A stretch of 64,000 nucleotides of DNA from Methanofervidicoccus abyssi (GTDB taxonomy: Archaea > AGJL01 > Methanococci > Methanococcales > Methanococcaceae). Positions 9,783 through 60,425 of this stretch are shown piece by piece. Both the position numbers and the translations under genes were made by a program. The stretch is taken from positions 1 to 64,000 of the forward strand of contig NZ_BFAX01000005.1 of the NCBI RefSeq assembly GCF_004310395.1. The letters are read 5' to 3'. Every line of letters starts with the position of its first letter. Position 1 is the first letter of the stretch. The notes below the pieces were generated by a model. It was not told where the DNA came from. It ran no database searches and worked only from the letters and a program-made list of their open reading frames with translations.

Positions 9783-10311
9783 AGAATATATGGAACTAAT
9801 AACCTGTCGAAAATCGTAAATAAAATAAATAAAAATAATAATCGTAAATAAAATAACAAAAAGTAAATAAAGTATAATTTAAACTCTGGTTAATACCTAA
9901 TATATCCTTCTATCCCTCTAGACTATATATTATATACTATGAAAAGTGAGATAAAATTTCCGTTAATCTCCTTTCTTAGAAGTTTTTACTCCTTTTCTGT
10001 TATTTCTCTTTATGTTTTTTATAAATATTATTATTTTTTTGATCATGAAAATTCTTATTATTTTATCGAGGTCTCCATAGTAGTTGTTGTTCGATATAAT
10101 ATTTTTGTTGCTATATTATAAAAAATAAAAACCTACAATTAGTTATCCATGATATAGAAGTTCCTACAACCTTTAGACATGAATTAAGAAGCTATAATCA
10201 TTAAACATTTAGAGAATATTTCTAACAGTGATAAAATATAAAAGATTTCTATAAACAGTTAAATTTTTATCTTTTTAACTATCACTTTATGAGAAAAGAG
10301 TCTATAATTGT
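9783..10311. other. Long AT-rich spacer, no gene recognised
   Basis: About 530 bp between two convergent genes. Short A/T-dominated frames exist, one of 60 codons starting at 9939, but composition (runs of Phe, Tyr, Ile), lack of a binding site and lack of any familiar motif argue against coding. Two copies of AATCGTAAATAAAATAA occur at about 9812 and 9840. No RNA gene seen. Confidence 0.5.
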
Positions 10312-23824: not shown

Positions 23825-24392
23825 TAAACCTTATAGCATGGTTCAGGAATATAGTCTGGATTTTATTTTTATATGATGTTCTTTATTTTTAATTTTAATT
23901 ATTTCTAATAATAATATTATTTTTTACTCTTCGATTATTATAATTCTAAAAAGAAGGGTAAAAGGATAAATCTACCATCACCTGTTATAAACCTTTAGGG
24001 TTAAAAGACGGCATGGATTTTTTTAAACCTTTTTTTATTCAAAAGTGCCTAATTCTAACGAATACCGTAAGATAGGTGTTTTATCCTTTTGTTTTAATAG
24101 CCAAAACATTAACTTTTTGAACTATAACAATAATTAAGAAAAATAATAAATAATTAAAAAAATAAAAAAACAACATAATAAGTAAAAAATAAACAATATG
24201 AGATAAAAAATCTTTAAAAAGATAGGTTAACATAAATTTCTTGCTTCTCTACAGGTTTATGGTAGCTCAAAGGGATACCAATTATATTTGCTCCTTTTCT
24301 TTTTATTCTTTGTTAGGTTTCTAATTGTTATTTTTAAGATTTAAATCACACATATATAAAATATAAAAATATAAAAACAGCAGGTGAATAAA
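23825..24392 (+). other. Long spacer with a copy of the dispersed hairpin element
   Basis: About 570 bp of AT-rich DNA. Near 24226-24290 it contains AGGTTAACATAAATTTCT, TTGCTTCTCTACAGG and then GGTAGCTCAAAGGGATACC, a hairpin with a D-arm-like loop, similar to the element at 60113-60172. No protein gene is seen. Confidence 0.45.
24226..24290 (+). repeat. Dispersed hairpin element, copy D (divergent)
   Basis: Shares with copy C an AGGTTAAC start, TGCTTCTC, CAG and a hairpin region ending in GGGATA; here the stem is GGTA/TACC around GCTCAAAGGGA, followed by AATTATATTTG. Similarity is partial and needs gaps, so membership is tentative. Confidence 0.4.
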
Positions 24393-26876: not shown

Positions 26877-27550
26877 AACAACCACTAAATTAAACTGTAC
26901 TAATGATACTAACTAAGGTAACATCATCTTACAACTTCTATATGTCCCACTAGCTAGAGATTTATCCTCCCAATATTCTAATAGATATTTTTATCTATAT
27001 CCCGGAATGTTTAGAAAGATAGATACTTTCTTCTTTCAAAGATTTAATATTTGACTATGTATAATAATTAAATTTTTAAATTTAACTTTAACTAGAGAAG
27101 ATTAGACTATCAACTACTTTTTACAATTTCTATAATTTTTATGTAATAAACAAGACTTTTTAAATTAACAATAACTTCAAAGGAATCTCAATAAAAATTA
27201 ATAATAATAAATTTAAATTAGTAGTTAATAAGAAAATAATAATAAAAAAATAAAAAGAAGATTTAATATAAATCCTGCGTTATTTTCCAGTATACAGTAT
27301 AGTTCATGAATAAAACTTATTTCATGTTTTTTCATTCTTTATTATTATTTTCTGGTTTTAAGAGAATTTTGTCTTTCTCAGTATTCTTTATTTTTGGTTT
27401 AACAGTTTTTTAAGATTTTATTATTTTATTATTAATTTTAATGTTTTATTAATTATTTTTTTATCGGAGATACTGGATAGTTATTGTTAGTTTAATTTGT
27501 TTATTACTTTTTAATAAACTTGGACATTGGAGAAAGGGATTCTCTGATTA
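26877..27550 (+). other. Long spacer with a copy of the dispersed hairpin element
   Basis: About 670 bp, one of the longest gaps in the window, almost entirely A/T. It holds copy A of the dispersed element at 27262-27325. The adjoining genes are transcribed leftward on both sides (minus strand). No protein or recognised RNA gene was found. Confidence 0.5.
27262..27325 (+). repeat. Dispersed hairpin element, copy A
   Basis: Begins TTTAATATAAATCCTGC, then TTATTTTCC, CAGTATAGTTC and ends ATGAATAAAACTTA. It aligns with copy B (37143-37207, minus strand) with one single-base gap and roughly four in five positions identical. AGTT/AACT can pair around CATGAATAA. Both copies are non-coding and flanked by unrelated genes. 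Confidence 0.65.
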
Positions 27551-29268: not shown

Positions 29269-29515
29269 TTTTAGTTTATGATAATTATTATTAAAATAAA
29301 AAGAATATAATAAAATAGTAAAAATAGTGGCGAAAAATGTTTAAAGAAAATAATGAAGGATCAACCCAGAAGATCTTCTAAATACTGTCGTCTAAGGGAG
29401 AGAAGATAGTGTGCCTTTTCGTTGGAATTCTGTACCTCTATCAGTGATGTAACCTATTGCTGTTAAGTTATATTATTATTTTTAATAAATATTTTAAATA
29501 AACTACTGGGATAAT
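29269..29515 (+). other. Spacer with hairpins, possible non-coding RNA
   Basis: About 250 bp. Contains a 12-nt palindrome AGAAGATCTTCT (29368-29379) followed by a hairpin ACTGTC/GATAGT enclosing TCT/AGA (about 29384-29412) with loop AAGGG. The GTCTAAGGGAGA region loosely resembles the hairpin of the dispersed elements. Function unknown. Confidence 0.35.
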
Positions 29516-36916: not shown

Positions 36917-37318
36917 AATTTCCCGTAATAGTGTTGCTATTAATTAAAAATAAAGAAAAAATGAAAGACTTTTCTCTATATTTTTCATGTATATTCTTTA
37001 ATGGAGCTGTGTTATAAGGAGTTTATTAGTTAATGAACTAAACTTTTTAAACTGACAACAACCATACAGTGTCTTCAAATGAAAAATATAATAAAAAGAA
37101 TAATTAGAATAGAAAAATAAAAATTAATACTAAGATGAAAAATAAAATATGTTCTTATCCCTGAACTGAACTGTGTGCCGGGAAAATAATGCAGGATTTA
37201 TATTAAACCTTCATCTCTTTTTTTATTTTTTTATCTTTATTTTTTTATTTTTATTATAATATTATTCCTCATAATTATACAATTATATGTCTAAAATCCC
37301 CATATTTTTTATTAATTA
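36917..37318 (-). other. Spacer with a copy of the dispersed hairpin element
   Basis: About 400 bp between the guaAB stop and the flippase start, very AT-rich except for 37143-37207, where a GC-richer element (copy B) lies on the minus strand. It lies downstream of guaAB and could be part of its 3' untranslated region. Confidence 0.5.
37143..37207 (-). repeat. Dispersed hairpin element, copy B
   Basis: On the minus strand: TTTAATATAAATCCTGC, ATTATTTTCC, CACACAGTTCAGTTC, AGGGATAAGAACATA. It matches copy A at about four of five positions. The hairpin here is GTTC-AGGGATAA-GAAC, where copy A has GTT...AAC and copy C GTTT...AAAC, a compensatory pattern. Confidence 0.65.
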
Positions 37319-55265: not shown

Positions 55266-55554
55266 GTTCAGTTAAATAAAATCCTGTGCTCATTGGAAAT
55301 TTTATAAAAATGGATAAAACCCGTTCCCATCAAGACAGTGGTTAAAGAACTATAAAATTTGAAGATATCAGAGAGATCATCCTTCTCAGTATTCTGGACA
55401 AATAATATATCCTATAGAAAATAAAAATACTGTCTCCTGGGCTAAACTGGACAGTGGAGAAACAGATGAGATTTCTTTTTTTCTTTTTTCCTATTTTTTA
55501 TTATTTTTATTTTATTATTCTTTTTATTATTTTAATAGGGACAAGGTTTATCAT
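55266..55554 (-). other. Spacer with a possible hairpin element
   Basis: About 290 bp between convergent genes. At 55424-55478 the minus strand has TCTGTTTCTCCACTGT, then CCAGTTTAGCCCAGG and GACAG, a strong hairpin (CTGTC/GACAG) with a D-arm-like interior that loosely resembles the dispersed element. No gene is seen. Confidence 0.4.
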
Positions 55555-59880: not shown

Positions 59881-60425
59881 AAAATAAAAGAGAGACTATC
59901 TTTCTTTCGGATGTCTCTGGGTACTAAAGAATCTTATTTGTAACATTTAATAAAATAATATATATAACAAAATAAAAAGTAAAAAAATAATAATATAGAT
60001 AAAAAAGTAAATATAATCCATCTCTGAAAATCGAGCACTGGAAAAATAGGTAAAATTCCTGTCAAATCTTTTTTAGGAGTTTTTTTATACTTTTTAATAA
60101 AACTCTTTAAGAAGAAGGTTAACCTGCTTCTCCAGTATATAGTGTAGTTTAGTGGATAAACGTTATATTTTTACTTTTCCTGAATTTTTCTTTATTTAGT
60201 TTAATCTTATTGTTTTTTATTAGAGATCTTAGAAGGTGTTATTGAAAAGTTTTTCATTATACTATATTATTTTAATTATTTTAACTATATTATTTTATAT
60301 ATTTTTATTTAAGAATTAGGATTTAAGATAATTTCAGACACATTTCAAAAAACGTACGCAATATTTTATTACAAACTAAAATAAATTACTAATTTAAAAT
60401 TCTTCACTCGATCTTGGTGAAAGAT
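59881..60425 (+). other. Long spacer with a copy of the dispersed hairpin element
   Basis: About 545 bp of AT-rich DNA between two plus-strand genes. Copy C of the dispersed element lies at 60113-60172, preceded by an inverted repeat GAGTTTT/AAAACTC (about 60077-60105). No coding frame is convincing. Confidence 0.5.
60113..60172 (+). repeat. Dispersed hairpin element, copy C
   Basis: AAGGTTAACCTGC, TTCTCCAGTATATAGTG, then GTTTAGTGGATAAAC and GTTATATTTT. The central part CCAGTATAxAGTxTAGTT matches copy A closely after a 4-nt gap. The hairpin is GTTT-AGTGGAT-AAAC. TAGTTTAGTGG also fits the box A of a tRNA D arm. Confidence 0.55.

Follow-up and report, generated by a model that had tools for sequence, protein, structure and literature searches.

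Intergenic repeats of Methanofervidicoccus abyssi very probably form a decaying, lineage-specific MITE family with an IS630 partner in a congener

Results

Architecture of the repeated element

The window, that is the whole stretch of 64,000 nucleotides analysed here, belongs to the 1.31-Mb genome of Methanofervidicoccus abyssi (G000), and its spacers hold several copies of a repeat. A sequence-only reading had paired 64 bp at 27262-27325 (+ strand, element A) with a stretch at 37143-37207 (- strand, element B). Within the window the two align at 79% identity over 97 bases with an E-value of about 1e-12 to 3e-13, and the match is thus real. Their neighbours had been described as unrelated, which proved incorrect: inverted arms on both sides of the core delimit a longer element. 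The reported 64 bp form the core of an element of ~300 bp with inward-facing inverted repeats (TIRs, consensus TATAGTMAWRAACAWAACTTTTTAAA) at its ends. A full copy runs from its left end (TATAGTCAAGAACATAACTTTTTAAA) through an AT-rich arm, a core of ~110 bp and a second AT-rich arm to the right end, which is inverted. The length of complete copies is about 300-316 bp, and that of A ~373 bp. The element codes for no protein, gene-sized ORFs falling outside the copies.

Element A is a whole MITE-like copy at 27139-27511 (+), with TIR profile matches on both sides. Its left TIR, TTATGTAATAAACAAGACTTTTTAAA, at 27139-27164 (+), faces inward, is found by the TIR profile at E 4e-6 and matches the TIR consensus at 85%. 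The right TIR lies at 27486-27511 (-), where the consensus matches 27449-27508 (-) at E 8e-8 and the outer end, set by eye, is approximate. Between them, the conserved core at 27251-27348 (+), which includes 27262-27325, was detected by the core model R1 (E 4e-14) and by an independent profile (28.2 bits, 27251-27335). Used alone as a query, A matched other parts of the genome over long stretches and also, in inverted orientation, sequence immediately before itself, and a second conserved block is present on both flanks of the core in opposite orientations. Element B, at 37026-37217 (-), comprises a core at 37132-37216 (40.6 bits, independent profile) and a right inverted repeat with its outer end at 37026 (TIR profile E 7e-6); its left end is decayed or unrecognised.

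The arrangement recurs beyond A and B. Near cores, 34 of 35 TIR profile matches face inward, with the left end 58-111 bp upstream of the core start and the right end 152-298 bp downstream of it, and both TIRs were found in several copies, A among them. The left end often continues as CTATAATAAAAAT and the right as TTAACAACAACCATCGAG. In two alike pairs of paralogues in the close relative G001 (C67/C223 and C11/C85), similarity sets in at the TATAGT end. Every end starts with TA, which is compatible with a TA duplication and inseparable from the repeat; neither a clean TA empty site nor, in the units of the genomes G012 and G016, a duplication longer than TA was seen.

The independent profile was built from 60 copies of two other genomes, without any window sequence, and seven window copies scored above all shuffles. 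The best of 20 dinucleotide-shuffled windows reached 11.2 bits and 40 shuffled spacer sets reached 7.3 bits, against 18.4-41.1 bits for the copies. Three of the weaker relatives proposed earlier were borne out: the one reported at 60113 is a core copy at 60100-60187 (+) with the window's best score, 41.1 bits; that at 55424 lies at 55414-55492 (-) with 32.2 bits; and that at 24226 is a degenerate copy at 24207-24304 (+) with 19.0 bits, orthologous to the G001:C56:1338 copy, with which it has locus-specific sequence in common. A fourth, at 29384, was not among the profile matches above shuffles in the window and is not supported as a family member. Two further copies had been missed, one at 59989-60083 (-), a divergent neighbour of the 60100 copy (31.8 bits; R1 E 8e-7), and a degenerate one at 9900-9986 (-), with 18.4 bits versus 11.2 for the best shuffle. 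The higher GC content ascribed to the family applies to B and the 60113 and 24226 copies (32-33%) but not to the core of A (23%, compared to 25% in the window's long spacers). A CRISPR leader or array was rejected, as the window has no regularly spaced direct repeats.

Copy number and distribution among genomes

With the core model, up to 150 first-look candidates were scored per genome, so that copy numbers are lower bounds and E-values rough. G000 was searched genome-wide and its sequence read in stretches around the matches. Further copies abound there, contrary to the absence of matches that would have refuted the sequence-only reading, with at least 54 places at E<=1e-3, or about one per 24 kb. 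At E<=0.1 there were at least 111 in G001 and at least 88 in G004, two close relatives, and the other 19 genomes of the family had no more than 7 each among the matches listed. In a scan of a genome collection with the core pattern, the only relative matched was the metagenome-assembled 'Methanothermococcus okinawensis isolate SZUA-1532'; three unrelated bacteria that also matched were taken as chance. Neither the TIR nor the core pattern had an exact match in viral contigs, and plasmids held none to the whole element.

Allowing two mismatches, the TIR pattern occurred 54 times in G007, a congener, at dispersed places, 22 times in G001, 8 times in G004 and 7 times in G002, and not at all in most other genomes, while a reversed control pattern gave zero matches in 36 genomes. 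TIR-anchored units of G006 and G007 have a core weakly similar to that of the family (E 3e-5 to 4e-3). A looser TIR pattern found compact TIR-bounded units in other genera, of 71-277 bp in G012 and 113 bp in G016, the latter up to 99% identical to one another and shorter than the full copies described here.

Some of these units have features of their own. Two in G012 (L336 351-627 and L339 262-538) have a TIR-bounded interior made of some seven different perfect short hairpins, such as ACCTACTCAACTTCGTTGAGTAGGT, and shorter G012 units are without some of them, as if hairpins were modules gained or lost. In G016, an ORF of 402 amino acids (L329 2131-3339), archaeal ATPase-like as its family was judged by eye, starts inside a 113-bp TIR unit, which may supply its start region.

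An IS630 element with similar ends in a congener

Among 22 Methanococcaceae genomes, DDE_3/IS630 transposases were found in G007 only. The G007 transposase is of IS630 type (PF13358 E 9e-28; NF033545 126 bits, cut-off 100) and is placed between TIRs at L352 902-2015. This genome has three complete IS copies of ~1.11 kb with ends TATAGTCAAGMACATAAT...ATTATGTTCTTAACTATA and inverted partner TATAGTTAAGAACATAAT. The copies start with TATAGTCAAGMACATAA, as G001 copies of our element do at their left end, and their first 17 bases equal that left end, with one base variable between IS copies. These common ends are the strongest argument that the repeated units would be MITEs of an IS630 element. Against it, the right end of the G000 and G001 copies (TATAGTAATAAACAAAAC...) is unlike the right end of the G007 IS, and the 22-genome scan gave no DDE_3 match in G000. 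An autonomous copy within G000 was considered and rejected, because TIR matches there flank no gene-sized ORF. In the G007 IS the transposase frame is split into two overlapping ORFs, which makes its own activity uncertain.

Placement and history of the copies

The copies are essentially intergenic, as judged from mechanically called ORFs. In tandem gaps, 33 lie on the same strand and 31 on the opposite strand (p 0.9), and an mRNA leader or terminator was rejected for this lack of strand bias. Convergent gaps hold more copies than divergent ones (39 vs 18, p 0.008), the pattern that a loss of insertions close to promoters would produce. Across twelve pairs of orthologous gaps, identity was 0.68 in the core, 0.69 in the upstream spacer, 0.61 in the downstream spacer and 0.80 at fourfold sites, and in pairs with well-aligned spacers the core was if anything less conserved than the spacer. 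Functional constraint on the core was accordingly rejected, since there is no excess conservation between orthologues. Thus, intergenic placement without strand bias, avoidance of divergent-promoter gaps and a core no better conserved than spacer point to decaying mobile DNA rather than a conserved RNA.

In a tree of cores, the genome labels are clustered (31 changes, compared to a minimum of 32 in 500 label shuffles), and the two closest pairs of cores (98% and 95%) are non-allelic copies, each pair within one genome. This suggests that amplification went on after the species split, while the many copies at orthologous places in G000 and G001 indicate that part of the spread is older. Occupancy also differs between genomes. 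Where G001 has its C103 copy, G000 has a 72-bp gap without the element, and the same two genes abut in G005, G008 and G010; the gap that holds B spans 405 bp in G000, and G005 and G010 have about 12 bp there. Such differences reflect gain or loss, not separable here because compact genomes may have lost spacer DNA. For one G016 unit, an exact empty site was not found in G014, the spacers being too diverged.

Two 455-bp segments in unrelated spacers of G000 (C1:213943-214390 and C2:165270-165718) are 97% identical. Their similarity begins inside the element and extends past it, which looks like a recent copying event by recombination rather than by transposition.

Origin of the element

The earlier suggestion of a miniature mobile element is well supported by the TIRs, the high copy number, a distribution restricted by lineage and the presence, in a congener, of an IS630 element that has the same ends. 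Very probably, the repeats are a lineage-specific, now mostly inactive family of MITEs that was mobilised in trans by an IS630/Tc1-mariner transposase. A transposase from an IS630 element whose ends match would have bound the inverted repeats and moved the unit to TA dinucleotides, the presumed target, in spacers. The autonomous element would then have been lost from this genome, leaving copies that decay through mutation, deletion and recombination with one another. Against a MITE, paralogues are most alike in the core and not at the ends, an unusual pattern for such elements. Copies probably also recombine with one another, which may be the reason that the core has stayed alike.

In being short, non-coding, multicopy and intergenic, with inverted ends common to a transposase-bearing IS630 element and TA-TAGT termini compatible with TA insertion, the family resembles the prokaryotic MITEs derived from IS630/Tc1-mariner elements. 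It differs from them in being old and heavily decayed, in having its autonomous partner in a congener only and in the conservation of core over arms among paralogues. REP/REPIN repeats are likewise palindromic, intergenic and of high copy number. REPINs, however, are much shorter and rely on transposases of the RAYT (Y1) type, whereas the ends described here match an IS630 DDE element. Many self-folding intergenic copies are also a feature of Correia elements and other bacterial MITE-like repeats, the subject of a review (PMC10969869), but their ends and host differ. The archaeal MITEs listed in a passage of this review, likewise non-autonomous mobile units, are from Sulfolobus, Halobacterium, Haloquadratum and Desulfurococcus, and the passage includes no Methanococcales (PMC10969869). 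None from Methanococcales was described in the literature that could be searched; the family would add this order to the archaea with MITEs and link it to an IS630 element in a congener.

That a palindromic spacer repeat was spread by homologous recombination and gene conversion, with no transposase involved, is highly improbable. The 455-bp pair fits such a history, as do a C3 copy that is highly identical to a C1 copy over about 63 bp only, the G001 C67/C223 pair, alike only from the left end to +110, and cores more diverged than well-aligned spacers at occupied orthologous loci. Against it stand the defined inverted ends common to the IS630 element and, in several genomes, the short and uniform relatives that are bounded by TIRs but differ in their interiors; reshuffling of copies by recombination after their transposition is the more likely role. 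We regard as similarly improbable that a transposon-derived core was adopted by the host, for example as a many-copy protein-binding site or a 3'-end RNA processing element serving dozens of operons, and kept similar by gene conversion.

The sequence-only reading had also offered small RNAs or a regulatory element. A family of small regulatory RNAs, each with its own promoter in a long spacer and with its conserved, functional part in the core, would account for the better conservation of core than arms among paralogues, for the TATA-like TTTAATATAAAT at the core start in G000 copies and for the folding of whole elements: A and one G001 copy self-fold far better than shuffles, with z about -5.2 each (z = -5.2 for A, with 0 of 100 shuffles as good). 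However, RNAalifold found no consensus pairs in the core in an 18-sequence alignment, and a GC content of just 23-33% is less than a structured RNA of a thermophile would be expected to have. Rfam, run on the window and five element-bearing loci, gave no credible match to the element, the window's only matches at E<=1 being tRNAs and 16S rRNA. Gene-orientation bias and excess core conservation are likewise missing, the core evolving no slower than adjoining spacer at orthologous loci, and a repeat with at least 54 to more than 100 copies per genome is nearly absent from close relatives. Together these results make a small RNA family highly improbable. Least probable of all are dispersed DNA sites for a host protein of the nucleoid, replication or segregation kept by selection, which would fit the regular presence in spacers and the retention of the core among paralogues but not the absence or rarity of copies in sister species of the genus or the lack of orthologue-level conservation of the core.

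Spread and decay of a lineage-specific MITE family would explain why some genomes of this genus of thermophilic methanogens have long AT-rich spacers where, at some of the same sites, the genes of close relatives nearly abut. Its copies are ready markers of the history of mobile DNA, and expression data should be required before repeated, foldable stretches of such spacers are annotated as small RNA.

Other repeats in the spacers

A separate, second family of inverted-repeat spacer sequences has ends CCYTAGTTCCCATCAAAGTAGTGATTAAAAG and was met in L168 (G004:C1:1136300-1138800), L169, L159 and L163 and at window positions 55323-55346; its units are often about 316-360 bp in G004, where the stretches examined gave 31 matches. 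A TATAGT-ended inverted repeat near 23.3-23.6 kb in L346 (G014:C15) differs in the sequence next to its ends (TATAGTTGTTTGCG...CGCAAACAACTATA) and may represent yet another related family. The third motif that recurs in spacers, ACTCCTGAAYATTGGAGGAAGGG, occurs at window positions 27519-27546, at about 1850-1890 in L009 and at about 1753-1775 in L002, and none of its 15 matches in the sequence examined falls inside an ORF.
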